Shown in pieces: positions 1-23,266 of a stretch of 43,822 bases of DNA; position 1 is the first letter of the stretch, and each line of letters begins with the position of its first letter. The stretch spans positions 1-43,822 of the forward strand of contig JADEXV010000035.1 in the NCBI GenBank assembly GCA_015206945.1. The letters are read 5' to 3'. The position numbers and the translations under genes were made by a program. The notes beneath the pieces are model-generated. The model was not told where the DNA came from. It was given only the letters and a program-made list of their open reading frames with translations, and did not search any database. The DNA comes from Nostocales cyanobacterium LEGE 12452. Its GTDB lineage: Bacteria; Cyanobacteriota; Cyanobacteriia; Cyanobacteriales; Nostocaceae.

Positions 1-1
1 A

Positions 2-97
2 ACTGATGCCTCTTCTCTTGAACAATCCGTTGTTCCATCTGATGATTGGAAGCCTGATTTAACTGGCTGGGAGGTGAGCATCGTTCTACCAAAATAA
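2..97 (+). CDS. tniA: C-terminal end of a TniA/TnsB-type transposase (partial)
   Basis: An open frame enters the window at base 2 and ends with TAA at 95-97. It encodes about 31 residues finishing ...WEVSIVLPK. Forty nucleotides downstream starts a TniB/TnsC-type ATPase and then TniQ, the standard order of Tn5053 and type V-K-like transposons. I therefore infer that this is the tail of the DDE transposase (TniA/TnsB). In related systems the extreme C-terminus of TnsB is the part that contacts TnsC. The catalytic domain lies outside the window, so the call rests on gene order. Confidence 0.55.
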   Translation, partial: TDASSLEQSVVPSDDWKPDLTGWEVSIVLPK

Positions 98-137
98 GGA
101 AATTTTCGAGGACACAAGCTTAACATCTCTATTAAAA

Positions 138-1130
138 ATGACTTTATCTGAAAAATTTCAAATTATTAATAACATTTACGTTATTTACCCTCGGCTTCAG
201 GAAATCCTCGCAGCTATAGAGTATTGCCATCATTTCTCTTCAGGTAAGGCTGAACCAGAATGTATGTTTCTTAGTGGTAATACAGGAGTTGGAAAAACTA
301 CAATCTATAAAGCTTACGCTAATAAATATCCAAAGCTTGTTACAAGAAGTGGTACAGTTGTTCCTATTTTAGCTGTTACCATTCCTTCCCCAGCGACTGT
401 TAAGACAGTAGTAACGAAATTGTTATGGAAACTTGGCGACCCCGCTTATGACAAAGGTACAATTGGTAATCAAACAATTCGTTTAATTGGTCTACTCAAA
501 GATTGTCAAGTTGAATTAATTATTTTAGACGAATTCCAACACTTTATTGACCGGGATTCAGAGCGAGTTCTCAAAACAGTTTCGGATTGGTTAAAGACTT
601 TAATTTTAGATACAAACTTGCCAATTATTTTAATTGGTTTGCCTGAAGCTGAAGAAGTTCTTAAACTTAAATCTCATTCTCAACTCAGTCGCCGCTTTGC
701 TAACCGTCATTATCTCTCGTCTTTTGGATGGCAGGCAGATGGTGGTGCAGAATTTCGGACTTTTCTACATTTATTAGAGTCAAAGCTTCCTCTAACTCAA
801 GCTTCAAATTTATCCGAAGTATATACAGCAAGAAGGCTTTACTACGCTTCAGATGGAGTCGTTGCTCATATAATGAAGCTAGTTCGGTATGGAGCTTATT
901 TAGCTCTTAACCAAAATCAAGAAAAACTTGACTTAAATATTCTAGCAACGGCTTTTGAAAAATCTGTTCGAGCCGATAAACCTGATAAAAGTAATCCTTT
1001 CATCACTGATAAATTTGAAATAGAGACAGTCCATTCTCCAACTGTAGACTTAGAAGTTGGTGGAACTAATAAACGGCTTAAGTCTAAATCTAAACTTTTA
1101 AAAGCTGCTCAAATATTAAGAAATTCTTGA
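138..1130 (+). CDS. tniB: TniB/TnsC-family AAA+ transposition ATPase
   Basis: This 330-residue ATPase has Walker A GNTGVGKTT at residues 47-55 and Walker B LIILDEF ending at D131-E132, in a fold typical of TniB/TnsC. Family members polymerise on DNA with ATP and link target choice (TniQ) to the TnsB/TniA transposase. It is somewhat longer than type V-K TnsC (about 275 residues); the extra length is a basic, low-complexity C-terminal tail (residues about 285-330, rich in Lys and Ser). The stop codon overlaps the TTG start of the next gene, so the two are translationally coupled. No Cas12k or CRISPR array follows. A Tn5053/Tn402-like assignment is therefore at least as likely as a CAST. Confidence 0.88.
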   Translation: MTLSEKFQIINNIYVIYPRLQEILAAIEYCHHFSSGKAEPECMFLSGNTGVGKTTIYKAYANKYPKLVTRSGTVVPILAVTIPSPATVKTVVTKLLWKLGDPAYDKGTIGNQTIRLIGLLKDCQVELIILDEFQHFIDRDSERVLKTVSDWLKTLILDTNLPIILIGLPEAEEVLKLKSHSQLSRRFANRHYLSSFGWQADGGAEFRTFLHLLESKLPLTQASNLSEVYTARRLYYASDGVVAHIMKLVRYGAYLALNQNQEKLDLNILATAFEKSVRADKPDKSNPFITDKFEIETVHSPTVDLEVGGTNKRLKSKSKLLKAAQILRNS

Positions 1131-1753
1131 ATAAAATATACTCTTATCAAGTGCTTTTACGAACTCCAACTCCCTATGAAGATGAAAGTTTAGCTGGTTA
1201 TCTAATTCGGCTAAGTGAAAGTAATTATTATTATTCTCCTAATTGGATTTTGCAGCTAGCTGGCTTACATATCAATCGAGGAATTCTTCTTGTCAAAAAT
1301 CCCTATAAGCCTTCCCAACTCGGTCAACTTATTCAAATGACCGATGAGCAGCTAATACTAATGGCTTCTCTCACTTATCAATTACCTTCTGAGATTACTT
1401 CCCAGCAATACACCCTTTATAAATTTGCTATAAAACTGTGTCCTTATTGTTTGACCGAATCTGCTTATTGTCGCAAAATTTGGGATTGGGATCTAGTAAA
1501 AGCTTGTTACTTACATCAATGTGTACTGCTTAAAAAATGTCCTAATTGTAACAAAGGTATTCGGTGGTCTAGACCCGCGGTCACAAGATGTCGATGTGGT
1601 TTCGATTTTCGTTCTGGGCAAGTTGAAATAGCCACCTCTGAGCAAGTTAATTTGTCTGCATACTTATCCTCATTGCAGAAAAGCCTTGCTACTGTGCAAG
1701 TAAGTCAGCATCAACAGAAACTACAAGATGCCTCAAATGATAATTTTGCCTGA
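1127..1753 (+). CDS. tniQ: Short TniQ-family target-selection protein
   Basis: The 208-residue protein opens with the TniQ-type segment PYEDESLAGYLIRLSE (residues 17-31). It carries a zinc-binding array: C105-x2-C108, C127-x2-H130, C138-x2-C141 and C155-x-C157. TniQ proteins recruit the TnsC/TniB filament to the target; short ones (about 170-220 residues) belong to Tn5053-like and type V-K transposons. The start is TTG at 1127, overlapping the TGA of tniB as TTGA, which suggests coupled translation. The C-terminal 45 residues are polar and probably disordered. Just beyond it lies the transposon terminus at about 1875, so the operon reads outward to that end and leaves no room for cargo on this side. 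Confidence 0.88.
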   Translation: MNKIYSYQVLLRTPTPYEDESLAGYLIRLSESNYYYSPNWILQLAGLHINRGILLVKNPYKPSQLGQLIQMTDEQLILMASLTYQLPSEITSQQYTLYKFAIKLCPYCLTESAYCRKIWDWDLVKACYLHQCVLLKKCPNCNKGIRWSRPAVTRCRCGFDFRSGQVEIATSEQVNLSAYLSSLQKSLATVQVSQHQQKLQDASNDNFA

Positions 1754-1774
1754 TGTATTGAAGTTGTGATTCGG

Positions 1775-1875
1775 AAATTTCACTTTATCTGCGAATTTAC
1801 TATTTAGCTCAAACCCTTACTCCCCAAACCCTTGTAACTGCGTTGTCCAAATTTCATCTTATGTGCAAACCCACA
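1775..1875 (+). repeat. Transposon terminus with two transposase-binding-type repeats
   Basis: Two related repeats lie downstream of tniQ: AAATTTCACTTTATCTGCGA (from 1775) and AAATTTCATCTTATGTGCAA (from 1849). The second runs into CCCACA ending at 1875, so the complement starts TGTGGGTTTGCACATAA, fitting the TGT...ACA termini of Tn7/Tn5053-like elements. The same module recurs at 33781-33861, which supports it as an element end. The other terminus lies beyond the left edge of the window, so the target duplication cannot be checked. Confidence 0.6.
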
Positions 1876-2363
1876 AGTGATGCCCAATTCAGTTACAGAA
1901 AGCAATCCAGTTTGTTCTAGTTACTTTAAAGAAAAATAATAGCTAGAACAAAGGACAACTCCAAACTGAAAAACTACAGAAGGGTAAAAAATTAGGCAGA
2001 CATAAAATTATCAAGCTGCTGCCACACTAATTTAGCTTTCTCTCTCAAACTACAAACATCAGCACAATGGCAAACATTAAGAACATTACTACTGATTTAG
2101 CATTAAGCAAGAAATAATTGAGAAGTTTGTATATTTTTTTCATACTTAAATTTTGAGATCACGCCGAATTATATCTTTAAAAGCTATCTTCTAAGCAATA
2201 ACTATATTTTAATGTATAAAAAGTTATATTTATTTTGCAAATGGAAATTAGAAAATTGTTTAATAAATTACCGAGATAGAGAAAGTAAAATCAAGCTTTA
2301 AGGGTATTTTAGTGCCAAAAAGTAAAAATTTATATTTAATTTTATAAGTTTAATTGTTAATAT
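1876..2363. other. AT-rich leader region before the giant gene, with an inverted repeat
   Basis: No convincing gene is visible in this stretch. A perfect 10-bp inverted repeat, TTTGTTCTAG (1911-1920) and CTAGAACAAA (1943-1952), encloses a 22-nt spacer and could be an operator or an RNA hairpin. The remainder is AT-rich and presumably holds the promoter and 5' leader of the 2617-codon gene. There is no clear Shine-Dalgarno sequence in front of ATG 2364. Confidence 0.4.
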
Positions 2364-5300
2364 ATGACAATTCAAGCTAAACATTTTGACACTAGATTAA
2401 ATCAATGGATTCATACAGATGGTAATAGAAATAATCCAGATTCGCTGTTAAAGGAAGAACTTAATAATACCTTACTAGAAGATTTCTTTCCTGGGGTAAA
2501 CTTTTCGTTTGGGCATATGGACGAAAAGTCTACTGTGGAACAATTAATTAATCATCCTGAAGGTCATAAATTATTATTATCATCAAAAACTCGGTTGTTA
2601 TATGGGCCAGAAGAATGTCTAGATACAATTAGACAATTATGCCCTGATAGCAAAGATAGAGGTGCTTACGGGTCTATCTTTCTTGGTTCATGTCAAAATG
2701 CTGTCAAGAAAGAGTTAAATATTCTAATTGTCGATGATAATAATGGTGGGAATGGCGGCGTTATTAGTAATGACCAAGCATATCAGCTAACAGGAGACTG
2801 TTACGGGCAAATATCCACAGACCTATATCACGAATTAACTAAGCATCAAAAAGGTGATAAATATCGAGTAATTCAACACCGCTTCGGTTGGACTGACCAA
2901 GACGGAGATGATAATAAATACCGCTTTGGCAAAGGTACACTACGCCCTGCAAACCTTGACCAAATTCTCAATTATTCAGATCCCAAGAACTCAACTAGAA
3001 TTGACTTAATTCTTCCCTTATCTGCATTCAAGGGAACTGATAAAGACAACCCTAATGGGCCAAGCAAGCCCCAAATTCAACCTGGACTGTACAGGCAAAA
3101 TATCTGGCTAGGTGAAAAATCACAATCTGAACTCGGTAAAACAGCTATTTCGCAGTTACTCGCTTCATTCCCTAACGGACTGAAAGACTTTACCGAACAG
3201 CTAGAACTTGAAGCCAAAAAGCTGAATGTTGTACAGGACGACCCCCGGCAACTTGCACAACTTTACTGCGAAAAGTACGAGAAGCGGAAAGCTTTTCTTG
3301 AAGAACAAGCAGCAGAAGATCCAACAGTAGCAGAAGATTTAGAACCTTTGCGCGATGGCGCAGGAGCGCCCGCCGTAGGCGATCGCATTCCTACTGATTC
3401 ATTTATTTACAAACTTATCAAAGCTGACCTGCAAGGAGAAAGTCAACTTCTCGAAACTGAGAAAGTACAGCGCGAACTCACCCGGTTCGTCCAAAACGAG
3501 TGGAAAGAAATTGCTATCGGCAAAACACTGACGTTTGAACGGGCAATGGTCATTCCCTGCAAAGACCTACAAAATGGGGAAATCTGCATCCCGCATTATC
3601 AAAGCGGGGAAGAAGTTCTCAACTTCCGCTCCCCTTTCCTCAACTCAAATGGTCTGTGCGTCTCAACTAACAAAATTGTAGAAGATATCCTTGGGCCTGA
3701 TGGTCAACCTTTAGCAGGTGCGATCGCTGTCTCGGACGAAACAAGCGATCGCATTTATAACCGTCTAAACGAGCAAATTAAATCTGCCCTACCCGAAGCC
3801 CAAAGTAAAAATATTCAGTTAGAAGGTATTGAAAATTACTTAGATAAAAATATTGGCAAGCTCGAAACTAAAGACAAAATCGAGTTTACCAACAAATTTA
3901 ATGAGTATATTTCAGAACTAAAGTCGGCTGGTTACGAGCTAGAAATTCTTCCTCAAGAGTCCGAACAAGAGCGTCAGGCACGCGACTACGATGGTGATTG
4001 TATTGGCTTTGAGCGGGCAAGCAGGTATCCAAACCTCACTGCCGAGGCAAGGGAGCGCAACCTGCCTGAAAACGCTTACGATCCAACTGTTAAACTCAAA
4101 AAACAATCTTTTTACCAGGAAGATGGCAGTCAGCCGGAATTTGAAGAAATCGCCATCCACATGAGCGATGGCATTAGTGTCGGTGTTATCAACAATCACC
4201 TGACCTCAATCGAAGCGTTAGAGTCAGAAATTACTATCCTGAAAAACTTTGGTAGTGAAAAAGACCAAATTGAGTACGTACAGCAGGTAGCCAAACACTA
4301 CGAAGATTTATTTAAAACAGAAGCCTGGGCAAAATCCAAGGGTATTGAAGGGAAGGAGATTCCGACTAAGTATCGCGGTTACATGGAAGAGTTTATCAAA
4401 ACTGTTCGGCAAGAACCCCTAAACCAGGTCAATGCACTGGTGGCAATGAATATTAACATCAAGATATACCGCAAAATGATTGCCGAGGCAGCATTTCAAA
4501 ACCAAATTGCAGTTGACCTCTTCAAAAGTGCCAAAAAACCCGAAATGGAAATTATCCGCGACAACAGCCGGATTCTCTACCGGGAGGTTAACTATATTAA
4601 GGATAAGAAAAAAGACGTTTATATTGACAATACAATTCAACCCACGGGATACTCGCCTGTTGAATTACTAATTGCTCAAACCAACCAGTATTTTGAAAAA
4701 GCTCGTCTCGAATCGCGTGAAATCGCCCAATTTCAAGCTTTATTTAAAGGTGTCGAGTTTTCTAACGAACAGCGATTAATAGCTACTCTTGTCAAAAAAG
4801 AATTCGACAAATCCTTTAACCAAGCGAGTCAGCTATCTAGACAAAGAGAAACTGAAAAAGGGCCGTCTGCAAATATTACCCTTGCTAACGGCAATCAAGT
4901 AAGTGTAACTAACCTTTTACAGTATGACAACGAATTTATCTGGAAAGCTAATAAAATTACAATCAAGCTATCAGAAATATCTGAAGACAAGCGCAACAGT
5001 AACCGCCCACATAAATATGTAGTTTATGCCCAAATTAACGATGAAACTGAGAACAACAAACCCAAGTTTAGGGCATTAGGAACACTTGCTAAGGAGCAAG
5101 AAAATAAAGCCGAAGAAATAGGAATTGGACTTGTACAGGAAGTAACGTCTAACAAAATAGCCTTCCAAGCTGAACTAAGCGAAGGTCAAATTAAACTTCT
5201 TTACCAAAAAGCCTACCAGATAGCAGAAGAATTTTACAATTCAATTCCAGAAGGACAAAAGCTAGCAATGGCAGCTGCTACCTGGGCAGTATCAACTACT

Positions 5301-8300
5301 CGTGAGAGTAGTAATGATAAAAATAGCGATTACCAAAAGAAAGTTTCTAATTTTGCCTTTGCTGCCTTTCCTGAAGAAATTATCAGTCAGTTAGACACAC
5401 TCAGATTTAACGAGTTTAGTATCACCGGGTTCGACCGCAGTAGTGAATTATTTCATGAAAATAAACCTCAAAATATTCGATTTAATCTAGCTGAAGATGG
5501 AAAAAGTGTCATTGAACTCCAGAATCAGGAAGGTAATTACGAAACATTTGGCAATATAGAACAAAGTAACGCCCGACTACCAATTGGTACTATTGCTATT
5601 GCCAGCGTTGAAAAAGGTGAAGTATATACCACCTCTGTTACAACCAAAGTACCTGGACTACCAGAACTTACCTTTAAAGTAGGTGAAGTTAATAAGTTTG
5701 GAAATTCCCAAAGGTTTAATAATGAACCTGTAATGTTAACAATCGAAAAGGTTGACCTTATTCGTGAAGACTATAGTATTTATCTTCAAAATGGTAATAA
5801 ACCTGAGAAATTAGGCAACATTGATAAGGAATCAATCAAAGAGGGTATTGCTGAAGGTTGGCTAGCAGAAAAACCCGGTAATGGGCAACAGTTACAGCTT
5901 AAAATTCAAACCATCATCACCGGACAAAATGCCTATGCAATAGCAGAGACATCTAAGGGAAATTTTTTACGAATTAATATTACTAATCCAAAATACAAAA
6001 AACAGGAGATTAGCAACCAAGCATTTAAAGAAACTTTAGTTAGAGCATTTGATAAAAAGCACGTTTATATTGCTAAAGTTGGTGAACAATCACTCGGCAT
6101 TATTGGTCAGCATACTGAACGCCTCGAAACCGAGTTAAATAGAGAGAATGTACAAAGACAGTGGCAAAGGAAAGAAAGTAGCACTGTACAAAAACTAATT
6201 GATACAGGCATTATCCGCTTAAACCAACAACGAACTACTATCCCTGTACAGATTACTAGTAATGAAAGTACCTGTAAAATAACTATTAATCCAGAAACAG
6301 TAGAGTATCCCGAAAAATGGGTTAAGCGCAGTCAGCTTATCAGTAATGAACAGCCTGTCAGAAACGAACAGCAAGAAAAACGTAACCAAATACTTGGTAA
6401 AATTAACGAACGTCCTACAATCATATTCCAAGATAAAGAACAAAAATTAGTAGGGCTTTTAGGATTAACAGTTGATGAAAATATAACTGAAAAAACTAAA
6501 AAATATCTAGAAAAAGTAGGAGTATCATACGAACTGTTTCCCAGTTCACAAGCTCGGTTAGAAGCCAAAAAAGGTATGACTGTATTCGTACTCGATGAAA
6601 GTACCATGAGTGGCGAATTAAAACAAACATTTATTGACCGTGCTGGTGGTAATATCAAGAGTGCAAATATACTGTCACAAACCACTCCAGTCGTTCCAGA
6701 ACAAACTGTATATTTTTATAACCCAAACCAACAATATAGTTCTCCAGATGGCTCGCAGGTAGAAACTAAAGAAGCTCTCGGATTAGTTGTTCCCGCACAA
6801 GACGCGATCGCTGTAACTACTTGGCTAGAATCAAAATCTACTGAAAATCATTATTTTATTGAGAGTAACACAGCTACATTTATTTTTAATAAAAATGAGA
6901 TTAGTGAAAAAATAAACGAAGAATTAAATAGTTTACTTGGAAAACCGATTAATATCGGTGAAGTTGAGGGATTTGACCGCTATGAACAGCTTAGTGCAGA
7001 GTTAAATCAAAAAGTTGCGGCTGAAGATAGTCGTTTAAAATTAAACCAAATTACAGAAAATAGTGAGTACAAAAAAGCTCTACAAGCACTACCTAACCGT
7101 CCCAGAGAGCTTAATCAAGAAGATTCTCCAGTACCAATTATTCCTGCAAAAGCTGTACCAGAAAATAATATAACTAACATTCAATCAAATACTAACGCCA
7201 CAGTTGCAGGTATTTCACAAGTTTACAAAAACGCAGTTGATATACAAGTATCAACAAACACAAAATTAGAAGCTGATAACCAAGCAATATTACTACCAAA
7301 CTCGCGCCAAGCTGATCCAACTAAAGCTATCGAAATATTGGGTAAGGTAAGCGAGGAAAAAGTAGAACAATTGCGATCGCACCTTGAAACCCACTTCAAA
7401 CCTATACTTGAAAACGATAAATCCAACTACGCACTAGGACGACAAGTCGCATGGGTCGGTGCAAAATGGGATTTGAAGGATAAAGACTTCAAGCCAGGGG
7501 TACAGGACGACAAGTTAATGAAACTTGTCAAACAAGTATATCCTGACGCTGATATTGTGCTGGTAACTTATTCCAAAAACCCCGGCGCTGGCATCAACTA
7601 CCACCGCGATGACTCCTACGCCGCGACGGAAGCCCGCAGCATTAATATCGGAAATTCTGATTGGGGGTATCGCGCTGCTAAGGAACGAATGGCATGGGCT
7701 AGGGAGGAAAATCAGGATGCACCATACCAAGAGTTTAAACTTGAGTCGGGTACAGCAACCCGCTTTAACTGCAAGAATGAACACGCTGCCCTCAATACTG
7801 AGGCTGGCAGATGGTCTATCAACATCTGGTCAATTAAAAATGACCTGGGCAGAGAAAACAGCGTTCGCCAAAAATTTGAGAACTTCCTCGCCTCAAACCA
7901 ACCTCCTCGTGCGATAGTCCAAAGCAACAGCGACCTTACCATCAAAACTAACGAGTGGACACCTGGGGGAGAAATTAAAGTAGAGCGCAGTTATACCAGC
8001 CTCAGAGAAGCCACCCGAAACATACCCTCACACCCTTCAAATCAAACAACTGTAGAAGAAATTATCGCCATCGGGAATTCCACTACGGCACGCGCTGCTA
8101 ACCCTCAGATTCCAGACAACCCGACTATATCTGGAAAACCAGTACCAATGGTTTATTCGCTACATCTGCACGACGAATCTTCCAAAGTACCAGCTGATAC
8201 AACTATCGATGCCATGCGGGGACACGGTAGGATACACACCACCAGAGGTGTAGATTACCAAAAAACTTATGGTGTCAAAGAAGGAGATATTGCGATCGCC

Positions 8301-10217
8301 CTTGGTAAAAACGGCGAGCAAGTTGCTTTCCGAGTGGGTAAGCAGTACAAAATTACCCCCGAAATGATTCAAGATCCAAGTTACCAGCAAGCCTGGGCGA
8401 AATGGGAAAAGCATTCATCTAAAGAACTTACCCAAACCCAGGCGAGTAAGAATCAGGTATATGGCTTATTCATGGAGCCGCTAGGGGATTATGTCAATGG
8501 CAAAATTGTTCCGTTCTCAACCATTCAAAAACAACCTGCAACTCCAGTAAATATCAGTCCCGACTCCAAAGATGGACTTGGAGTAGCACTCAGCCTTGCC
8601 ACTGCACTCGCAAAAGAACAAGGCAAGCTACAAAACGATTACCAAGTTTCAGTCAATAATAATCCAGAAGCCCCCACCGGACGATATGGAGTAGAGAACC
8701 ATGTCCAAAAACCTGAAGGAGTAGCATACGCATCCGCCGAACACGCATTTAACCACCAAAAGCAGTTGCATCCATCGGCTGATGAATACAAGCTAATGGT
8801 AGAAGTGCTTCAGGCTAAACTGGAACAACACCCCCGACTAACTGAGGCGATCGCCAAACGCGGAGGAACTGAGTGGCTGGAAAACTGTACGGCAGTTGCT
8901 ACAACTGGGGGAACCCCAACGGACAGTTCGCTCAAGTCGGGAAACCCGCCCACGCGACTGTCCTCCACAACGCACTGCCTCACCAACATAACTAACGCCC
9001 AGGATAAACAGTGGGAGGGTAAGGGTAAAGAATCCGCATTTATTCAAGCCCTCAGCGAAGCATATATCAATGTAGTTGAAAAGTCACAACAAACTACGGT
9101 ACAAACCCAGCAGGAAAAGTCCGAACAGACTGATCGGCCGCTGACAAATCCACTATCCCAACTCGAACCGATAAACGCCGCCGTCGCTGAACACATGAAA
9201 AAAGATATTGCGATGGCACAAATAGCTACCCAGTTTATCGGTAAATCAGCTGCGCCACCTGAAACACCTTCAAGCACCCGTAATTACGAGCAAGCATGGG
9301 GAGAACGCGCCAACACTGGAAATTACTCAAAAGACGACATCATTATGGTATCCGGGTCTGGCCCGTGGCGCGGAGTGACAAGCGAGCAAATTGCCCAAAC
9401 TTTTGAAAATCACTACAAACCGTTACTTAATAAGGTAATAGAAGCCAAAAGCTCTTTCATAGTCGGAAACGCACAAGGAACTGATCAATTAGTTCAAAAT
9501 TATCTTCAAGAAAAAGGCTACAAAGTAGAACAAACTTCCCAAGGATACGCTGTATTTAATCCTATAGAAAATATCAAAATTAATATCAACACTATTTCTT
9601 CCAATATACAAGTATCACATAACCCATTTATTACTAATGACAAGAGCATTTTGTCTCCACAACAAAGTCAACAACCAAATATTTACCAAGCACTTGCATC
9701 ACCTTCTCAACCCAGAATACAGCAGGTTGGAGCGATGGATAGCATTATCGAGCGGATGAAAGCTAATACAGTGCAAAATCTTCGAGACTGGTATGTAGCA
9801 GCTGAAAAGCTCGGTAAATCAGAAACATATCTCAATAGAATTCAGGAGGTAACTGATTTATACATCAAAGAAAATATCAGTCTTGAGAACGCTTTTAAGG
9901 CAATGGAGCAAGATATTAAGGAGCTAGAAAAAATTAATGAAATGACCAGTCTTTCCCAAAGTTTAGTTAAAATCATTGGACAGGAAGATATCAATGGCAT
10001 TATGTCAGTACAAACAGAAAAATACCAAATTGCTACAAAAGTCCAAGACAAAATTTACTTAGTTAAAGATAAAAATGACAACATATTATTATATATCAAA
10101 GAAGGAAGAACCCAAGTAAGTAACATTAGTGATGAAACATTACAGGACTTTCAACTCATGAATTCCCGTATCGATAATGCTCTCAAAAATGTCAAAAAAG
10201 ATTTAGTGGAGAGGTAA
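2364..10217 (+). CDS. Giant polyvalent protein: RDR-like RNA polymerase + AlkB-like + ASCH-like + NADAR-like + SLOG-like domains
   Basis: This is a single uninterrupted 2617-residue frame. The N-terminal third carries, in order, motifs typical of RNAi-type two-barrel RNA polymerases: GGVIS (131-135), Q171-x-R173-F-G followed by K190-G191, a YRQ...AISQLL helix (243 to about 267), NFRSPFLNSNG (420-430), the metal-binding loop D541-Y-D543-G-D545, and AVDLFKSAKKPEM (716-728), which resembles the AVDFxKTG block of eukaryotic RDRs. A long barrel-rich linker follows. Residues about 1660-1830 look like an AlkB-type 2OG-Fe(II) oxygenase with H1747-x-D1749, H1807 and R1816. Residues about 1930-2050 look ASCH/PUA-like. 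NADAR-like features lie at about 2095-2235 (SAEHAF from 2124, WEGKG from 2217), and a SLOG/DprA-like Rossmann segment at about 2327-2400 (VSGSGPWRG, VGNAQGTD). The last 170 residues are helical. Two short repeats sit in frame. No signal peptide or membrane span is seen. The architecture suggests a mobile-element effector or counter-defence protein. Domain calls are by eye. Confidence 0.7.
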   Translation: MTIQAKHFDTRLNQWIHTDGNRNNPDSLLKEELNNTLLEDFFPGVNFSFGHMDEKSTVEQLINHPEGHKLLLSSKTRLLYGPEECLDTIRQLCPDSKDRGAYGSIFLGSCQNAVKKELNILIVDDNNGGNGGVISNDQAYQLTGDCYGQISTDLYHELTKHQKGDKYRVIQHRFGWTDQDGDDNKYRFGKGTLRPANLDQILNYSDPKNSTRIDLILPLSAFKGTDKDNPNGPSKPQIQPGLYRQNIWLGEKSQSELGKTAISQLLASFPNGLKDFTEQLELEAKKLNVVQDDPRQLAQLYCEKYEKRKAFLEEQAAEDPTVAEDLEPLRDGAGAPAVGDRIPTDSFIYKLIKADLQGESQLLETEKVQRELTRFVQNEWKEIAIGKTLTFERAMVIPCKDLQNGEICIPHYQSGEEVLNFRSPFLNSNGLCVSTNKIVEDILGPDGQPLAGAIAVSDETSDRIYNRLNEQIKSALPEAQSKNIQLEGIENYLDKNIGKLETKDKIEFTNKFNEYISELKSAGYELEILPQESEQERQARDYDGDCIGFERASRYPNLTAEARERNLPENAYDPTVKLKKQSFYQEDGSQPEFEEIAIHMSDGISVGVINNHLTSIEALESEITILKNFGSEKDQIEYVQQVAKHYEDLFKTEAWAKSKGIEGKEIPTKYRGYMEEFIKTVRQEPLNQVNALVAMNINIKIYRKMIAEAAFQNQIAVDLFKSAKKPEMEIIRDNSRILYREVNYIKDKKKDVYIDNTIQPTGYSPVELLIAQTNQYFEKARLESREIAQFQALFKGVEFSNEQRLIATLVKKEFDKSFNQASQLSRQRETEKGPSANITLANGNQVSVTNLLQYDNEFIWKANKITIKLSEISEDKRNSNRPHKYVVYAQINDETENNKPKFRALGTLAKEQENKAEEIGIGLVQEVTSNKIAFQAELSEGQIKLLYQKAYQIAEEFYNSIPEGQKLAMAAATWAVSTTRESSNDKNSDYQKKVSNFAFAAFPEEIISQLDTLRFNEFSITGFDRSSELFHENKPQNIRFNLAEDGKSVIELQNQEGNYETFGNIEQSNARLPIGTIAIASVEKGEVYTTSVTTKVPGLPELTFKVGEVNKFGNSQRFNNEPVMLTIEKVDLIREDYSIYLQNGNKPEKLGNIDKESIKEGIAEGWLAEKPGNGQQLQLKIQTIITGQNAYAIAETSKGNFLRINITNPKYKKQEISNQAFKETLVRAFDKKHVYIAKVGEQSLGIIGQHTERLETELNRENVQRQWQRKESSTVQKLIDTGIIRLNQQRTTIPVQITSNESTCKITINPETVEYPEKWVKRSQLISNEQPVRNEQQEKRNQILGKINERPTIIFQDKEQKLVGLLGLTVDENITEKTKKYLEKVGVSYELFPSSQARLEAKKGMTVFVLDESTMSGELKQTFIDRAGGNIKSANILSQTTPVVPEQTVYFYNPNQQYSSPDGSQVETKEALGLVVPAQDAIAVTTWLESKSTENHYFIESNTATFIFNKNEISEKINEELNSLLGKPINIGEVEGFDRYEQLSAELNQKVAAEDSRLKLNQITENSEYKKALQALPNRPRELNQEDSPVPIIPAKAVPENNITNIQSNTNATVAGISQVYKNAVDIQVSTNTKLEADNQAILLPNSRQADPTKAIEILGKVSEEKVEQLRSHLETHFKPILENDKSNYALGRQVAWVGAKWDLKDKDFKPGVQDDKLMKLVKQVYPDADIVLVTYSKNPGAGINYHRDDSYAATEARSINIGNSDWGYRAAKERMAWAREENQDAPYQEFKLESGTATRFNCKNEHAALNTEAGRWSINIWSIKNDLGRENSVRQKFENFLASNQPPRAIVQSNSDLTIKTNEWTPGGEIKVERSYTSLREATRNIPSHPSNQTTVEEIIAIGNSTTARAANPQIPDNPTISGKPVPMVYSLHLHDESSKVPADTTIDAMRGHGRIHTTRGVDYQKTYGVKEGDIAIALGKNGEQVAFRVGKQYKITPEMIQDPSYQQAWAKWEKHSSKELTQTQASKNQVYGLFMEPLGDYVNGKIVPFSTIQKQPATPVNISPDSKDGLGVALSLATALAKEQGKLQNDYQVSVNNNPEAPTGRYGVENHVQKPEGVAYASAEHAFNHQKQLHPSADEYKLMVEVLQAKLEQHPRLTEAIAKRGGTEWLENCTAVATTGGTPTDSSLKSGNPPTRLSSTTHCLTNITNAQDKQWEGKGKESAFIQALSEAYINVVEKSQQTTVQTQQEKSEQTDRPLTNPLSQLEPINAAVAEHMKKDIAMAQIATQFIGKSAAPPETPSSTRNYEQAWGERANTGNYSKDDIIMVSGSGPWRGVTSEQIAQTFENHYKPLLNKVIEAKSSFIVGNAQGTDQLVQNYLQEKGYKVEQTSQGYAVFNPIENIKININTISSNIQVSHNPFITNDKSILSPQQSQQPNIYQALASPSQPRIQQVGAMDSIIERMKANTVQNLRDWYVAAEKLGKSETYLNRIQEVTDLYIKENISLENAFKAMEQDIKELEKINEMTSLSQSLVKIIGQEDINGIMSVQTEKYQIATKVQDKIYLVKDKNDNILLYIKEGRTQVSNISDETLQDFQLMNSRIDNALKNVKKDLVER
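3351..3386. repeat. Short palindromic Nostoc-type repeat inserted in frame
   Basis: A GC-rich palindromic unit beginning CGCGATGGCGCAGGAGCGCC and ending in GCGATCGC lies inside the giant gene (residues about 330-341, read DGAGAPAVGDR). It resembles the repeat at 23919-23946 and contrasts with the AT-rich surroundings. It preserves the frame and falls between two recognisable motif blocks of the polymerase-like region, probably in a surface loop. Confidence 0.6.
8891..8966. repeat. 75-bp GC-rich repeat inserted in frame within the NADAR-like domain
   Basis: A stretch containing CTGGGGGAACCCC and CTCAAGTCGGGAAACCCGCC has the look of dispersed cyanobacterial intergenic repeats rather than of coding sequence. 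It encodes a Gly/Pro/Ser/Thr-rich insert (residues about 2177-2201) between NADAR-like blocks (EWLENC before, NITNAQDKQWEGKG after). The length keeps the reading frame. The insertion may expand a loop without destroying the fold. Confidence 0.6.
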
Positions 10218-10224
10218 TTTTAGC

Positions 10225-10995
10225 ATGAAAGAATTAATCGAACTTTCAGTAGAAGGTTTAACTCCGGCTATGCAAGCCAGTCTCCTCAGAGAATTGATCA
10301 AACAGCTTAACATTCCTAATGATAAATTTGAAGAATCTGCAAAAAAGCCTCCAACTGCTGAGGAACGAAAACAGGCTGTGTTAAACTTAAATTCAGAAAT
10401 GAATAGAATCAGTGAAATAGCGCAAGAGGAAGTAAAGTTAAGCTCGACAGAAATTGAACCTATCATTTCTGTTAATTCAGTTAGTCAAAAACTATCTTTA
10501 CAACCCGAAGTAAGCCAGTCTAAAGAAAATACAATTGAACCAGAGATTCTAAAAAATCTCACAACTAAAAATGACGACAATAATGGCAAACCAGTAGAAG
10601 AAACTCCAGAAGATAAAGTACGATCTCTTACCGCAGATTTTCAAATTAGACAGTTTGTTATTCCTATAATTTTAGACCGCTTAGATATATTTGGAAAATC
10701 AGATAAAGAGACACAAGGTATTATTTATGAAAGTGAAGAATATACTGCAAGTCTAAAATTAGAAGAAGATTCACAAACTCTTAGCCTTGATAGAAATTTA
10801 CCTAATTCCGAAGAAAGTCAAGAAGCACTCTTGGCATCTCGTGACAATAACTCAGAAGAGTACTCTATCACCATTAATAATCTCACTAAAGAGGAATTTG
10901 AACGTTTCAAGACTCTGTTCAATGAGCAACAAGCACGCCGTGAACAGAGTCAACAACAATTCAAAAACCAGGATTCTGCTAAAGAGCTAGATTAA
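10225..10995 (+). CDS. Acidic hypothetical protein coupled to the giant gene
   Basis: I do not recognise this 256-residue protein. It starts 7 nt after the stop of the giant gene, preceded by GAGAGG as ribosome binding site, so the two form an operon. The N-terminal half (residues 1-80) is helical and charged (LLRELIKQLN, EERKQAVLNLNSEMNRI). The middle is Glu/Asn-rich and probably disordered. A short conserved-looking core around residues 128-150 (DKVRSLTADFQIRQFVIPIILDRLDIFG) and a Glu/Gln-rich helical C-terminus follow. There are no membrane spans, Cys motifs or catalytic signatures. By position it is probably a partner or regulator of the giant protein (inference). Its stop overlaps the 3' end of the convergent gene downstream. 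Confidence 0.7.
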   Translation: MKELIELSVEGLTPAMQASLLRELIKQLNIPNDKFEESAKKPPTAEERKQAVLNLNSEMNRISEIAQEEVKLSSTEIEPIISVNSVSQKLSLQPEVSQSKENTIEPEILKNLTTKNDDNNGKPVEETPEDKVRSLTADFQIRQFVIPIILDRLDIFGKSDKETQGIIYESEEYTASLKLEEDSQTLSLDRNLPNSEESQEALLASRDNNSEEYSITINNLTKEEFERFKTLFNEQQARREQSQQQFKNQDSAKELD

Positions 10996-11237
10996 ATCAA
11001 CCCAAAGCACACGCCATACATAAAAGCTATAAATCCAAAAATCAGCTTTTTATTAAAACTCAGGGGGGTCTTGGGACAAATAACAACCGCAACAGCAAAA
11101 TAGTAAAAAGACGCAGTAAAGTCCAACAAACTCGTCGGGTTAATAGGCAATCTGCCTAATCCGACCAAACATAGCATCCCCATTAAAGACCAAACAACAA
11201 TCTTTTCTATCCATCCTAAAAGTTTATCGCTATTCAT
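10992..11237 (-). CDS. Small integral membrane protein, unknown function
   Basis: This 81-residue protein consists almost entirely of hydrophobic helices: about residues 10-30 (IVVWSLMGMLCLVGLG), 40-55 (FTASFYYFAVAVVIC) and 63-81 (KLIFGFIAFMYGVCFGLI). It is convergent with the acidic protein and overlaps its stop by 4 nt. A GGAGG lies about 15 nt before the ATG, longer spacing than usual. No family is recognised. The three-span pattern and lack of charge bias make it more plausible as a real gene than a chance frame. Confidence 0.55.
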   Translation of the reverse strand: MNSDKLLGWIEKIVVWSLMGMLCLVGLGRLPINPTSLLDFTASFYYFAVAVVICPKTPLSFNKKLIFGFIAFMYGVCFGLI

Positions 11238-11494
11238 AAAAAATTATCTATTCCTCCATCAATTCGCTAATAACTATTAAACCCATGACTTATAAATAAA
11301 ATCACCTAGTAAATAGATTGCTTAATGAAAAGTACACAAACCACCCAATCACTTTGTAAAGTTTTTACGAATAATGGTAAAAATTTTAAATAAGCCAATT
11401 AAGTTATAGTAATTGTAAAGATTAAAAAATTTAAAATAGTAAGTGCTATAAGTATTATTATCAAGGACAATACCAAACCAAAAAAGCATATAAT

Positions 11495-12283
11495 ATGAAA
11501 CCTATTAATGTTGTCATCATTGAAAATGAGAACATATCTAGGATTGGCGCGGCAACAATATTATCTGAAACTGGTAGAATCCAGGTATGTAGCCTTGTCA
11601 AATACGGGAAAGAAGGGATAGAAATTGTTGATAAGCAAAAGCCAGATATCGTAATTATAAATATTGATTTACCTGATATCGATGGCATTGATGTAATCAG
11701 TACAATCAAATCCAAACACGCATCAATTAAAATTGTGGTTATGACTGCAAATAGCAGCCGAGATACTATTAACGCAGCCATTAGTAATGGCGCAGACTGC
11801 TATTACTGTAAAAATAGCGTCAGAGAAGAAGTAGGAGAAAGATTCGTTGAAGCAGTAATGGCTGCATACAATAACGAATCATGGATTGATCCAACTATTA
11901 ATCGTATTCTGATTGATAGTCTCAGGTTAAATGAGACCCCTGATAGAAATGCACTAGATTTGTTAAGTGATTTCTCTAATAAAGAAATAACAGTTCTTAA
12001 ATTAGCTGCTGGAGGCATGAAAAATAATGAAATTGCTAGTGTCATGTATGTTTCCGAAGGTACAGTAAGATCGTATCTACATAATTCATTTATCAAGCTA
12101 GGAGTTAAAGATAGGTTAAACGCTATCCGCGAAGCAATCCGTCTGGGAATCCTCAGCTTTACAGACATGAAAATTGAAGAAGAAGTTACTCAAGAAACCC
12201 ATACAAGAGTCAAAACCAACCATAAAAGTCAAAAAGATACAGCTAAAACAAGTAACAAGGGATACAAAGGCTGGGTTGCCTAG
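11495..12283 (+). CDS. NarL/LuxR-type response regulator with degenerate receiver domain
   Basis: The 262-residue protein has a CheY-like receiver (residues 4-125) and a LuxR-type helix-turn-helix (about 155-215: SNKEITVLKLAAGGMKNNEI, then VSEGTVRSYL). The receiver keeps the switch Thr (VVMTA, T84) and conserved Lys (K106), but the phospho-acceptor Asp is replaced by N56 (IIN-ID-LP), and the acidic pair after strand 1 reads E10-N11. It should therefore not be phosphorylated in the normal way and may be constitutive or controlled by ligand or partner. A Lys/Thr-rich tail of about 45 residues follows the HTH. It stands alone, with no histidine kinase nearby, between the giant-gene operon and the ParA-like operon. 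Confidence 0.88.
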   Translation: MKPINVVIIENENISRIGAATILSETGRIQVCSLVKYGKEGIEIVDKQKPDIVIINIDLPDIDGIDVISTIKSKHASIKIVVMTANSSRDTINAAISNGADCYYCKNSVREEVGERFVEAVMAAYNNESWIDPTINRILIDSLRLNETPDRNALDLLSDFSNKEITVLKLAAGGMKNNEIASVMYVSEGTVRSYLHNSFIKLGVKDRLNAIREAIRLGILSFTDMKIEEEVTQETHTRVKTNHKSQKDTAKTSNKGYKGWVA

Positions 12284-12287
12284 AAAA

Positions 12288-12908
12288 TTAATCAACTGCA
12301 ATTATGCAGCCACCTGAATACTTCTTCTGCTGGCGGCAAGTTTTAATGATGGCGGCGTTTTTAACATAAATACTACGTGCTACCTTACCTTCATTGGATT
12401 TAGCCCAATCTAGAAGCTTTTTATCTTCGGGTTGTAAGATGGCAGATCCAGAAGCCGCCTGCTGAAAAGTTACACTTCCAGCGATGGTCTTGTATGTAAA
12501 AACACCAATTGCAGTCCCTAAGGCTAGTACGAAACCCAATACCCCCGCCACTTGTGCCAATCGCCAATTACTTACATCCAAGTGAGGCAAAGCTCCGCCA
12601 GCTTGCTTAGTCATCTTAACTAGATCCTTCGCCGCTTCTGCGATCGCACTCTTTTGTTGGTGTATAGCCACCTTAGAAGCACTATTAAGCTTATCGTCTA
12701 CCATGTCAGTCCAACCCACCACAAGCGAGTCAAGCCTACCTGGTAGCTGCTGCAACGCAAATTGAGTTGTACCTAGTTCGGCGTATAGGTTAAACAAGGG
12801 GTCATCAGGCCGAATACCCAATTTAAGTATCCAATCAGTAACCTCTGCTTTTTTTTCTTCAGAATATTCAGCAACAACTTTTTCAATAACTTTTGCAAGA
12901 TTAGTCAT
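12288..12908 (-). CDS. Single-span membrane protein of a plasmid-type ParA operon
   Basis: The 206-residue protein has a soluble helical N-terminus (residues 1-110), one transmembrane segment at about 119-139 (VAGVLGFVLALGTAIGVFTYK) and a C-terminal domain of about 65 residues with Cys near the end (TCRQQKKYSGGC). It is the third gene of an operon after two ParA-like ATPases. This arrangement resembles conserved cyanobacterial plasmid clusters, but I cannot name the family. A role in plasmid maintenance or conjugation is inferred from context only. Confidence 0.7.
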   Translation of the reverse strand: MTNLAKVIEKVVAEYSEEKKAEVTDWILKLGIRPDDPLFNLYAELGTTQFALQQLPGRLDSLVVGWTDMVDDKLNSASKVAIHQQKSAIAEAAKDLVKMTKQAGGALPHLDVSNWRLAQVAGVLGFVLALGTAIGVFTYKTIAGSVTFQQAASGSAILQPEDKKLLDWAKSNEGKVARSIYVKNAAIIKTCRQQKKYSGGCIIAVD

Positions 12909-12965
12909 AGGTTGTTTTTAAACAGTCAATTTGAAATTTCACTTTCAATTTGGTAAAGCAAATAA

Positions 12966-13772
12966 TTACCATTTTTCAGATTCAACATCTTCAGTTACAT
13001 CAAAATTGGAAGGACTTTGTTTACTTACACCCGTAGAAACTAGTTCTGCACAGTTCGTACTCAACCCTAGATAATTAGAAGCTATTCCATTAGAAACAAT
13101 AGAGTTATGAAAATTCTCCATCCAGTTGAATACTATCGACCGCTGAATAGTATTAAGAGGAGAGTTAATTTCAATCAGTTGAGCATAAGGTAAACTAGCA
13201 TCCTCAAGTAACTGGTAAAAGTCATTATGCAATCCACCTAAAACTAGTTCCAAGCCGTTTAATTTTTTAATATTAGCTTGGAATTGACTCCCCTCATAGT
13301 ATCGAAATCGCTTGCCAAAGTAATGATTTTGGATAACAACATAATCAACCTGACTACCAAAATGCTGATATAAATCCTGAAGATAATCTTCAACACAGTC
13401 TTTACGGTGTGATATCGGGTGCAAGAAAGTAACACGATATCCTAGACAATTAAGATTTTCTATCAGTGAAACATCTCTATCAAAAAACTTGAATTCTCGG
13501 AGGTTTTGACCTGGCATATCAGTCAAAACAACTTCAATTTTCGGAAACATTTCTAAGTCGAGTAATAACCTATCAGAATCACCTCTAGAGAATCCCAAAT
13601 GGTTTATCTCAAAGCGTTGTGTTTGATACATCGATAGCTTATTGCGATGCCCGTGGTAGAAAACACGCACATTGAGTTTATTTTTCAAGTACAACTCTAG
13701 CAAGAGCCTAGAAGCTGTGGACTTACCAACACGGGCATCACCTGATGTAATTACAAAACGCTTTCTAAACAT
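12966..13772 (-). CDS. ParA/MinD-like P-loop ATPase, second of a pair
   Basis: The 268-residue protein has a P-loop GDARVGKST at residues 11-19 and a Walker B-like VVLTDMPGQN with D85. It lacks the signature lysine of the KGGxGKS deviant Walker A box found in its neighbour, so dimer-type ATP hydrolysis as in true ParA may be altered. The region VDYVVIQNHYFG parallels VDYVVVKNLFHG in the upstream paralog, showing that the two arose by duplication. It is separated from the upstream gene by 23 nt and likely co-transcribed. Probable role: plasmid partition or mobilisation (MobD-like), by inference. Confidence 0.75.
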   Translation of the reverse strand: MFRKRFVITSGDARVGKSTASRLLLELYLKNKLNVRVFYHGHRNKLSMYQTQRFEINHLGFSRGDSDRLLLDLEMFPKIEVVLTDMPGQNLREFKFFDRDVSLIENLNCLGYRVTFLHPISHRKDCVEDYLQDLYQHFGSQVDYVVIQNHYFGKRFRYYEGSQFQANIKKLNGLELVLGGLHNDFYQLLEDASLPYAQLIEINSPLNTIQRSIVFNWMENFHNSIVSNGIASNYLGLSTNCAELVSTGVSKQSPSNFDVTEDVESEKW

Positions 13773-13795
13773 AATAAACTAAGCAAATTATTAAA

Positions 13796-14722
13796 TTAAG
13801 CAGCTATATTCTCAGATTGTAAATTTGAATCTTGATTTTTAGCTTTTTCTTCATTTTCTCTAAGCTCTTTAGACTTTTCAACAACTGCTGGATAGTAACA
13901 ATCATCTGGTTGCATATCAAAACCAAATAAATTAAATGCTGGCTTGATTTGCGATTCAAACTCAGCAAGCCAAGATTTAATTCTCGATTTAATCACAATA
14001 TTTGTTCCTTTATAAGTCTGTCCTTCATTAAACGTTAAAGCATGGCGGTCAATAAAGTCGTAGGATTTGTAGAATAAATCTGGCATCACAAGTTCTACCA
14101 AACCTTCTGCAAGCATATTTTGACGCAGAAAAGCGTCATTATATCGCTCAAATTTTTCTTCTTCACCATGAAATAAGTTCTTGACAACAACATAATCTAC
14201 TTGATTTTTACAAAGTTCACGCAGTTTTTCTAGAACATTTATGGAATCAAGAACCCTACTAATCACTGAAACCATCGTAACTTGACAATTAATATCGGTT
14301 TTAAGCACTTCAAAAAATGAAAGCTCTTTGACATAACTTTCAAAGAAACCTCCAGATTGTGCTGGTAAGTCTAATAGTGTAATAGGACAATCAGTCTCAT
14401 CTAAATTAATTAATAAATCGTCAGCACCACCTCTATGAAAAATATCAATGTAACGTATTATGGGTCGGTAGTCTTTTTGAAAATATCTTTCTAACTGAGG
14501 ATTTCTTAAGTCAGCTTCATAAGTAACACAGGGTAAATTTTTATTAATGTATAGTTGAAATAGCGCTCGTGCAAAGGTACTTTTTCCCACGCCTCCTTTA
14601 TCACCTGTGACAATTATTAGCCGCTTTTTAGGTTTACTATCAGTGTTTAATGAAATATTTCTATTGGTTATATTATCATCAGACATGGCTTTCTTACTCT
14701 TATTGTTTCTATTTTGAGACAT
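13796..14722 (-). CDS. ParA/MinD-like ATPase with complete deviant Walker A motif
   Basis: The 308-residue protein has KGGVGKST at residues 42-49 preceded by LIIVTGD, a YEADLRNPQL segment (switch-like, D71) and Walker B LLDLPAQSGG (D118). These features define the SIMIBI/ParA-MinD class, which drives plasmid partition, septum placement or relaxase-linked functions. The N-terminal 30 residues are polar and likely disordered. It is the first gene of a three-gene minus-strand operon with a diverged paralog and a membrane protein. No ParB-like gene or obvious centromere repeats were seen next to it, so a partition role is not proven. Confidence 0.82.
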   Translation of the reverse strand: MSQNRNNKSKKAMSDDNITNRNISLNTDSKPKKRLIIVTGDKGGVGKSTFARALFQLYINKNLPCVTYEADLRNPQLERYFQKDYRPIIRYIDIFHRGGADDLLINLDETDCPITLLDLPAQSGGFFESYVKELSFFEVLKTDINCQVTMVSVISRVLDSINVLEKLRELCKNQVDYVVVKNLFHGEEEKFERYNDAFLRQNMLAEGLVELVMPDLFYKSYDFIDRHALTFNEGQTYKGTNIVIKSRIKSWLAEFESQIKPAFNLFGFDMQPDDCYYPAVVEKSKELRENEEKAKNQDSNLQSENIAA

Positions 14723-15573
14723 AACAATCTTCTACAAAGCAAATAGACTTTGTTGATGTAAATCGAAACTTCTAAACCTTATTTTGAAGAAAATAATTCC
14801 TTTATACTAGTTGACAATTATTTGATACAAACAATATTCAATGATAAAATTAGTTGATGATACAGGTTCCCAGTAAACCACTTAAAATGACTGCATCCCT
14901 CCATTAATCCTCCCAGAATAAAAAATCAGAAGTATACTTATGCAAAAATATCATGCTTGCATCAATTCTAAAATGTTCATATACTTACCATAAAAATTAG
15001 CTGCCAATAAATACTCATTATTCAATGAAACATGACTACTCTGTTTTATACAGATTGCTTTTATTATATAAGCTCTAACTTAAAAAGCCAATCAACAAAA
15101 TTTCAATATTTAACTAACATTTGTTGATCTGTAAATTAGTAATAAATTTCATCTAGTTTACTTGATTTAGTGTTAGTTATGCATTTAATTAATATATTTT
15201 GTAGCTTGATAAAAGCTATTTTATAGTATTCTTAAAGTTTGAGTTATATTCTTATTAAAAGAAATCAGATATCAAACCAACTTTACAGGAAGCTGCTGAT
15301 TATAAAGTGGCAACACACAAAAAAATGCCCCTCGCAAAAACTTACCTACAAATTATTCAAAAATCATAAATTTTGGCGTATACGAGCATACAACCATACC
15401 ATTCAACTAGAAATTGCAACGCCTCGGATGCCTAGTCGGTTGGCTGCACGTCAGAAAACTGATTTATAAAATAACCTACCTAAATTTATACCTTGAGAGG
15501 GACGAAAAAAATCGACGAATTTAGGCGTGGATAAAAGGAACTGCGACACTTATTCGGCTGTCAAAGCTGGCTT
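14723..15573. other. AT-rich intergenic region without a convincing gene
   Basis: This 850-bp AT-rich stretch separates the ParA-like operon from IS copy 1. A basic 76-codon frame starting with TTG at 15239 has no ribosome binding site or recognisable motif, and I do not call it. The region presumably holds the promoter of the minus-strand operon. I saw no iterons or long inverted repeats. Confidence 0.4.
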
Positions 15574-19094: not shown

Positions 19095-19167
19095 AGGTGT
19101 ACTCTCTAAACTAGGGTAAAGATTTGTTGTAGCCAAAGAGTTAATTGAGATTACGCTAACAAATTTT

Positions 19168-19755
19168 CTGACTTTTCACGTTATATGGAAAAGGTGATTC
19201 TAACGTTTTCTCAAACCCTATTCTTTCCTTACTTATTGTCATTAGCTTCAAGTTATTGCTAATAAGCCTGTGAAAAAAGTAACGTAGTTCTGTTGCTTGA
19301 AGACTTCCCGTGAAAAGTCAGCTTACCAATCGGGCCGTAACCTTCTTTTTTAGCTGCAATACTGCCATAATCAAGAAAAGTAGTGTCCCCGACACACAGC
19401 ACTACATCATGCTCTGCAACAATTTCTGCCGTCATTTGGCAGTGCGGCTCTAAAAGCTATTGTAAATTCCACTTTGGGGTTGGCAAAAACTCGTATGCTC
19501 TCTTAAGTACGGTTCCGCTGTTAAAGATTTCTGAGAGTGCTTTGCCAAATCCCTGGCTTAAAGCATAGCCAAAAGACAAAAGCACGCTCATTCAATCGGC
19601 GCTCGCCTAATTCACAGGTTGCAAAATTTTTCTCCCACCAGTCCAGCATTGCTTGTTACCTCTAGCACACGATTTCAATCACTGTACCGTATATACTGTG
19701 CTTTATCCAAAATCCTTTCTGAGCAAGCTTTTTGAGACTTAACGGGAAAAGTCAG
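19168..19755 (-). mobile_element. Internally deleted IS4/Tn5-like element (588 bp)
   Basis: The left terminus reads CTGACTTTTCACGTTATATG (from 19168) and the right terminus, on the complement, CTGACTTTTCCCGTTAAGTC (ending at 19755). A third copy of the same terminal motif, on the complement, ends at 19321 and joins directly to transposase coding sequence. The element thus looks like a transposase fragment plus a 154-bp unit with its own inverted ends (19168-19321). No target duplication was identified. Confidence 0.6.
19322..19649 (-). pseudogene. IS4/Tn5-like transposase, N-terminal remnant
   Basis: On the minus strand from ATG 19649 the product begins MLDWWEKNFATCELGERRLN, the typical start of Tn5-type IS4 transposases. 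With two frameshifts it continues through a QGFGKALSEIFNSGTVLKR-type segment to VVLCVGDTTFLDYGSIAAKK and GYGPIG, the first catalytic Asp region. It is cut off there by terminal-repeat sequence. The remaining two thirds, including the other catalytic residues, is missing. Confidence 0.75.
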
Positions 19756-19950
19756 GTTCTACAATTCCCTTAACAATACGCCTACTGGGAACAAGACCCC
19801 CGGCTTATTGTATTGCTCCCTGCCACACAATAAGCTGTTAACGTGGTTCTAGCTTAGTCATCGGTCGGACTTGGCGTTCGCTAGTCGGCAGAATATGATC
19901 CATTGGATCACATTCTGCCACCCAATTCTCAAAAATAACCGCAGAAAAGC
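19756..19950. promoter_or_regulatory. Upstream region of the ZIP-like gene with a 15-bp stem hairpin
   Basis: GGCAGAATATGATCC (19887-19901) and GGATCACATTCTGCC (19905-19919) form a near-perfect 15-bp inverted repeat with a 3-nt loop, only 31 bp before the ATG of the membrane protein gene. One position is a G-T type pair. There is no T-run, so it is not a standard terminator. It may be an operator or leader hairpin controlling the downstream gene. Confidence 0.45.
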
Positions 19951-20676: not shown

Positions 20677-20678
20677 TT

Positions 20679-23256: not shown

Positions 23257-23266
23257 AATTCACTCT

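Follow-up and report, generated by a model that had tools for sequence, protein, structure and literature searches.

A predicted two-barrel RNA polymerase at the head of a giant protein of cyanobacterial plasmids, often encoded downstream of a relaxase gene

Single-chain RNA polymerases with two barrels are already on record for mobile elements. YonO of Bacillus phage SPbeta is a DNA-dependent enzyme of this kind, and YonO-like proteins have been placed in cyanobacteria by Forrest et al. 2017 (both according to the sections of PMC5467207 drawn on here). The latter report contradicts the original prediction for our locus where it held that such a polymerase would be new in a cyanobacterium. Among the enzymes of this fold that serve gene silencing in plants and fungi, QDE-1 has been solved in complexes with DNA and with RNA templates, as the titles of the PDB entries state. 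In conjugation, the primases TraC of RP4 and SogL of R64 pass into the recipient and carry out priming there, as described in the sections of PMC5512222 used here.

We analysed a stretch of 43,822 nucleotides from Nostocales cyanobacterium LEGE 12452, called the window below, in which one gene encodes a giant protein with a polymerase-like first part.

2364..10217, + strand: giant protein gene, an open frame of 2617 aa with an ATG start at 2364
2364..5414, + strand: predicted two-barrel RNA polymerase part, residues 1-1017
2697..3125, + strand: first barrel in our assignment from the secondary structure of the model, strands within residues 112-254, with QHR 171-173 and KG 190-191
3531..4016, + strand: second barrel in our assignment from the same source, strands 390-457 and 546-551, inserted helices 461-521
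3984..3998, + strand: metal-binding loop DYDGD with D541, D543 and D545
4425..4526, + strand: bridge-helix-like helix 688-717 in the model and AVDLFK 716-721

Searches of the giant protein against Pfam, NCBIfam and PHROG gave nothing above the cut-off or with a convincing E-value. A SUKH_5 match (Pfam) at residues 482-538 was dropped, as it is below the cut-off and overlaps the helical insertion. The motif blocks that had been read by eye are all present in the order originally described, and the residue numbers given for them are correct (DYDGD at 541-545; AVDLFK at 716-721, hence K721). The GxGxIS-like block is GDCYGQIS at 144-151 or, alternatively, GGNGGVIS at 128-135. It is followed by QHRFG (171-175), KG (190-191), RQ (244-245) with AISQLL (261-266), and then VLNFRSPFLNSNG (418-430). 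The block described as RQ...ISLL is thus present, but it may be the wrong stretch, because hhalign pairs the consensus ISLLRxDxxGQL of a distant sister family with IYKLIKADLQGESQLL at residues 348-363.

The conservation of these blocks exceeds chance on three counts. First, every one of the 120 family proteins scanned has DxDGD, including the giant protein itself. Second, an alignment of 106 rows, which takes in proteins sharing merely 22-27% identity with the giant protein, has invariant residues in the first barrel (Q171, R173, K223, G224), in the metal-binding loop (D541, D543, G544, D545), and in AVDLFK (V717, D718, K721). Third, comparison with seven relatives gives dN/dS values of 0.09-0.22 for codons 1-1050: the polymerase part is under purifying selection. 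A simple AVDxxK pattern missed its block in 3 of the 120 proteins (P0039, P0041, P0080); P0039 and P0080 are rows of alignment A1, where K721 is invariant, and P0041 is absent from that alignment.

The structure model has a pLDDT of 87.5 and a pTM of 0.83. Its 15 best PDB matches are without exception single-chain RNA polymerases with two barrels, and the alignments take in most of the chain: residues 1-1015 of the model align with RDR2 over 602 residues (rmsd 5.7), and QDE-1 also aligns over 602 (rmsd 5.6). The largest subunits of multisubunit RNA polymerases match mostly inside residues 336-773. Judged by structural alignment to known polymerases, the model has two double-psi barrels in one chain. 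This supports the original prediction on the points it had named as decisive: the model aligns with double-barrel enzymes, and DYDGD does not lie in an unrelated fold. The description of the fold as RNAi-type holds as far as RDR2 and QDE-1 match over most of the chain; it does not set phage-type enzymes aside, because the Z scores of RDR2 (16.3) and of phage gp64 (16.1) are tied. The span first proposed, 2364-4950, was too short, since the structural match reaches about residue 1017 (window position ~5414). By sequence, no polymerase was retrieved from the PDB with P0001, A1, or A2, nor with the polymerase part in phmmer. In summary, the first ~1015 residues are predicted to form a single-chain two-barrel RNA polymerase fold with conserved catalytic residues.

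Two sceptical readings bear on this point. One takes the motifs for chance matches in an unrelated protein, as the empty family searches might suggest. It is already refuted, because the structural match spans ~1000 residues; the homology with the sister family (E 3.7e-40) and the invariance across 106 rows also count against it. The other accepts the fold and takes the protein for a catalytically dead or non-polymerase derivative, whose barrels would be a nucleic-acid-binding scaffold for variable modules. The activity of the polymerase part is indeed read from sequence and model, and phmmer reaches no PDB polymerase with it. However, the three metal-binding Asp and the Lys of AVDxxK show no variation even at 22% identity, and the dN/dS values are low, so we consider a dead scaffold very improbable.

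As far as its listed members are named, the family is cyanobacterial. A search of 5.8 billion proteins returned 259 homologues at E≤1e-3, and every protein with an organism name among the 120 listed of these is from a cyanobacterium. Among 39 genomes, namely the one that contains the window and relatives of it, 20 have a match; in an even sample of 292 cyanobacterial genomes, which again contains the source genome, the number is 22. We grouped the proteins by identity into subtypes A, B, and C, a division of our own making. The near group has at least 57% identity to the giant protein, and most of its listed members have 1900-4000 aa; the middle group has ~51-57% identity and ~1500-2300 aa; and the distant group—the sister family, subtype C or '1141-aa' family—has 22-29% identity, with most listed members of 1050-1320 aa. 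The sister family is homologous to the giant protein in profile comparison (hhalign, probability 100, E 3.7e-40, 843 columns). One of its loci (L022, 10475-19561) lies beside genes for ThiF, JAB-like, histidine kinase, response regulator, Uma2, and Gp157-like proteins.

The sister family also leads to described polymerases. At E≤0.01, Pfam RdRP (PF05183) recognises 18 of the 38 sister proteins; the best E-value is 1.5e-8, and the first sister protein falls just short of the cut-off. The same Pfam family exceeds the cut-off in 5 of the 292 cyanobacterial genomes. Against the polymerase part of the giant protein, PF05183 gives no row at E≤10. The sister family also resembles proteins of Gordonia phages that bear the name RNA-dependent RNA polymerase; hhalign with one such phage protein gives E 8.5e-7 at a probability of 91.5. 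YonO, used as a single sequence, shows no significant similarity to either family (hhalign probability 1.5 with the sister family, at DNDGD, and 0.4 with the giant-protein family). Phage records gave no match to P0001 at E≤0.01, and none of the 52 pattern matches for a relative of A3 in viral contigs was confirmed; a phage origin of the giant protein thus lacks support.

These matches raise the possibility of an RNA-templated, RNAi-like enzyme that makes double-stranded RNA against transcripts of the host or of rivals. RDR2 and QDE-1 are among the closest solved folds, and Pfam RdRP does match the sister family. Yet QDE-1 has been solved with DNA templates as well, and the neighbouring genes that could be named include no Argonaute or Dicer-like gene. 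We regard this explanation as unlikely.

Beyond the polymerase part, the protein consists of constant and variable regions, followed by a companion gene.

5415..6653, + strand: further constant N-terminal region, residues 1018-1430 (1401-1450 covered in 85% of the 83 more distant relatives)
6654..9710, + strand: variable middle, residues 1431-2449, from coverage among 119 relatives
7311..7913, + strand: possible 2OG-Fe(II) oxygenase-like module, tentative (Pfam 2OG-FeII_Oxy_3, E 0.099, below the cut-off)
8586..9098, + strand: possible NADAR/YbiA-like module, tentative (Pfam NADAR, E 0.01, below the cut-off)
9711..10178, + strand: constant C-terminal module, residues 2450-2605, from coverage among relatives and 45 plasmid records
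10225..10995, + strand: companion gene, 256 aa, starting 7 bp past the giant gene

Nearly all of the 119 relatives cover residues 1-1400, and the constant N-terminal part extends to about residue 1430. Coverage of residues 1451-2450 is 60-97% among the 36 near relatives and 4-52% among the 83 more distant ones; for residues 2451-2600 it returns to 81-83% and 86-94%, respectively. Both ends are therefore constant and the middle is exchanged. Precomputed Pfam domains of the 120 listed proteins include RNase H in 5, cpYpsA in 9, and SF1 helicases in 3, and these modules were confirmed with their positions in three relatives. In the giant protein itself, 2OG-Fe(II) oxygenase-like and NADAR-like stretches are only suggested: a PDB profile search for the first was empty, and the second matches ybiA (2b3w) at E 0.99, ranked behind two unrelated rows. 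Readings made by eye of an ASCH-like stretch (8136-8519) and a SLOG-like stretch (9315-9569) found no support in profile searches. In one relative (L011) the companion gene and the giant gene are fused: the companion is homologous to a portion of the 2800-aa fusion protein there. Like the polyvalent proteins of phages and conjugative elements, the giant protein is multidomain, has variable modules, and has relatives on plasmids.

In PLSDB, 82 of 72,556 records match, of which 39 are typed as conjugative, 15 as mobilizable, and 28 as non-mobilizable. A survey of 424 cyanobacterial plasmids, in the part of PMC8600333 consulted, gives 6% conjugative and 6% mobilizable, a loose yardstick for our 39 and 15 of 82 as the typing method differs. 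In the four relatives with at most 10 contigs that carry the gene, six of seven closer-subtype genes are on contigs of 0.21-0.81 Mb. Some copies are on chromosome-sized contigs (L017, L060). The annotation is 'hypothetical protein' in 52 of 60 listed plasmid rows.

A relaxase gene is a frequent neighbour. We opened three complete plasmids—plasmid C of Trichormus variabilis ATCC 29413 (homologue AVA_RS28855), Nostoc C052 pC052_E, and Chroococcidiopsis pCHRO.01, all typed as conjugative, MOBP and MPF_T—and in each the relaxase gene is 0.8-3.6 kb upstream on the same strand. We then counted relaxase genes of three families in 17 genomes. For the closer subtypes, 28 of 35 polymerase genes have one within 10 kb, upstream in 28 of 28; for the distant subtype, all six have one within 25 kb, always upstream, at 13.6-23.9 kb. 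Uniform placement in the genome would put ~0.7 of 41 within 10 kb, a null that flatters the link because both kinds of genes favour plasmids. Five of the seven closer-subtype genes lacking a relaxase within 10 kb are within 7.5 kb of a contig end; G001:C183 and G015:C2:54500 have long upstream sequence, yet no relaxase. The count leaves out G014, G018, and G037, second halves of the same polymerase genes, and pieces lacking the N-terminus (e.g., G016:C104, G021:C165, G001:C80, G017:C112, and G008:C19, the last with a Mob_Pre relaxase ~11 kb away); 13 relaxase rows were dropped as second pieces of genes already counted.

A second count used contigs of public genomes, which partly overlap with the loci of this survey. 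From 147 relatives we obtained 80 loci, and searched them by BLAST with three representative relaxases whose families were assigned by Pfam. Among the 60 loci with at least 8.5 kb of upstream sequence, 52 have an upstream relaxase (30 VirD2-like, 16 Mob_Pre, 6 TrwC), at a gap of 0.3-9.0 kb (median 3.7), and 8 have none; one of the 52 (L034) holds merely a 97-aa relaxase piece. The other 20 loci, with shorter upstream sequence, have a relaxase in 5. The VirD2-like relaxase is on the strand of the polymerase in 30 of 30 loci. The Mob_Pre or TrwC relaxase is on the opposite strand in 19 of 22, pointing away from the polymerase gene, so these loci have no shared operon. In many loci of the ~55%-identical subtype, a divergent gene for a ~176-aa protein with no Pfam match, possibly a regulator, lies ~50 bp upstream of the polymerase (e.g., L015 6803-7333 and L016 8318-8848, both on the - strand).

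The relaxase type changes at least seven times on a tree of 57 polymerases (a quick tree, with SH-aLRT only), and well-supported branches force at least five Mob_Pre changes. One locus, L057, also holds a VirD2-like gene and was scored by its nearer Mob_Pre pieces. A relaxase stays upstream even though its family is replaced, which argues for a joint function. We found neither the relaxase link nor a giant polymerase with constant ends and a variable middle in the literature searched, which did not include Ruprich-Robert and Thuriaux 2010, Iyer and Aravind 2012, or Drobysheva et al. 2021.

The window itself contains no relaxase; its giant gene is flanked by other genes.

138..1753, + strand: genes for TniB and TniQ from a Tn7-like element, immediately upstream of the giant gene (Pfam TniB 3.7e-26, TniQ 4.4e-15)
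11495..14722: conserved downstream neighbours by Pfam, namely a LuxR-type response regulator, DUF6753, and two more proteins, one of them ParA-like with a P-loop

In the same genome, contig G000:C107 carries NikA-like and VirD2-like relaxase genes in the usual order and ends in TnsA-/TnsB-like sequence. The simplest reading is that a Tn7-like element has likely been inserted between the relaxase and polymerase genes. The insertion and the join between G000:C107 and the window's contig stay presumptive, because the compared ends have no sequence in common. A further polymerase gene of this genome, on G000:C57, has a Mob_Pre relaxase at a distance of 4.8 kb on its upstream side, and a polymerase fragment lies on a 3-kb contig (G000:C21). 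The gene next to this fragment, c12, could pick up at the break in the TrwC contig G000:C296, although identity to the reference is very unequal between these two pieces (80% and 32%).

The ~300 bp before the giant gene (window ~2064-2363) are conserved in 19 aligned loci, with a column identity of 0.7-0.98 that peaks in the last 100 bp; the sequence further up diverges. An Rfam scan of window positions 1-15000 found nothing. Further right, metabolic genes occupy 17718-31239, among them those for a PhoX phosphatase (17718-19094), a Rieske/pheophorbide oxygenase (25838-27085), a UDP-glycosyltransferase-like protein (28269-29528), and an aldo/keto reductase (30259-31239). They lie between the conserved block and a second Tn7-like module (34695-39476, - strand), which has TniQ, TniB, and a 922-aa TnsA-TnsB fusion and is separate from the one at 138-1753. 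It is followed by an AAA protein (39918-41168) and, near the right end, by a patatin-like phospholipase gene (42148-43173, - strand).

The relaxase link could reflect a conserved gene order of plasmids rather than a joint function. The protein would then be a housekeeping RNA polymerase of the plasmid, transcribing a set of plasmid genes in the resident cell, much as YonO serves its prophage, or priming plasmid replication, and would adjoin the relaxase through the order of the backbone. The downstream order (response regulator, DUF6753, and further genes) is the same in many relatives, 28 of the 82 plasmids are typed as non-mobilizable, some copies are on chromosome-sized contigs, and 8 of the 60 loci have no relaxase, all of which suits this explanation. 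But a fixed gene order does not readily account for a relaxase family exchanged at least seven times with the relaxase still upstream, and the single relaxase match on a plasmid-sized contig of 222 kb would fall by chance into a stretch of 10 kb upstream in ~4.5% of cases. We see the housekeeping role as possible, if on the unlikely side.

We favour a role in transfer. Conjugation exposes single-stranded plasmid DNA that needs priming and, in the recipient, a first round of transcription. Considering this exposed DNA together with the transferred primases TraC and SogL and with the DNA complexes of QDE-1, we propose an RNA polymerase for the plasmid strand. Because most relatives have a relaxase gene a few kb upstream, the polymerase-like first ~1015 residues, with their conserved catalytic residues, would likely synthesise RNA on single-stranded plasmid DNA in conjugative transfer, to which we assign a probability of about 0.5. 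The element-specific RNA synthesis of the original prediction is thereby narrowed to plasmid transfer, a plausible setting for this putative activity.

The scheme would run as follows. The enzyme would be active as an RNA polymerase; its template would be the plasmid strand that is transferred or the one that stays in the donor; and its product would be primers for complementary-strand synthesis, first transcripts, or both, making it a primase or an early transcriptase. The modules of the middle, which are RNase H and SF1 helicase in a number of relatives and perhaps 2OG oxygenase or NADAR here, might handle RNA:DNA hybrids, DNA damage, or recipient defences, and the RNase H and helicase modules in particular would remove or unwind RNA. 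The protein might itself pass through the type IV secretion system, as the RP4 primase TraC does. A bolder version, which we hold tentatively and with some doubt, makes the protein a conjugative counterpart of virion RNA polymerases: partnered with the relaxase, it would enter the recipient with the plasmid strand and make RNA at once on naked single-stranded DNA, supplying primers and first transcripts independently of any host enzyme. RNA synthesis in plasmid transfer would give this enzyme family a new task, and the genomic link between a polymerase fold of the RNAi type and the transfer of bacterial plasmids has outlasted the exchange of relaxase families. If the proposal is true, conjugation in a cyanobacterial clade has its own RNA polymerase, and a bacterium could be used to test the role of such enzymes beyond phages and eukaryotic RNAi.

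Compared with known systems, the predicted polymerase part shares its fold with the eukaryotic RDR2 and QDE-1 (PF05183). Unlike them, the giant protein is bacterial, has variable modules fused to it, and is not reached by PF05183, and the identity in structural alignment is 11-14%. The RNA polymerases of the gp64/gp62 type (PDB 8f72, 8f5m) are phage proteins with chains of 595 and 592 residues. Polyvalent proteins are also giant and multidomain and also contain nucleic-acid enzymes; those named in the sections of PMC5512222 used here are Toprim and PrimPol primases and the N4-type RNA polymerase, with no two-barrel RNA polymerase among them. YonO is similar in being a single chain with two barrels on a mobile element, whereas its profile comparison with the giant-protein family is non-significant. 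The 1141-aa sister family differs in identity (22-27%) and in length (listed members of at most ~1320 aa, without the giant middle), but it is homologous, its motifs align with those of the giant protein, and it has a relaxase upstream in six of six cases.
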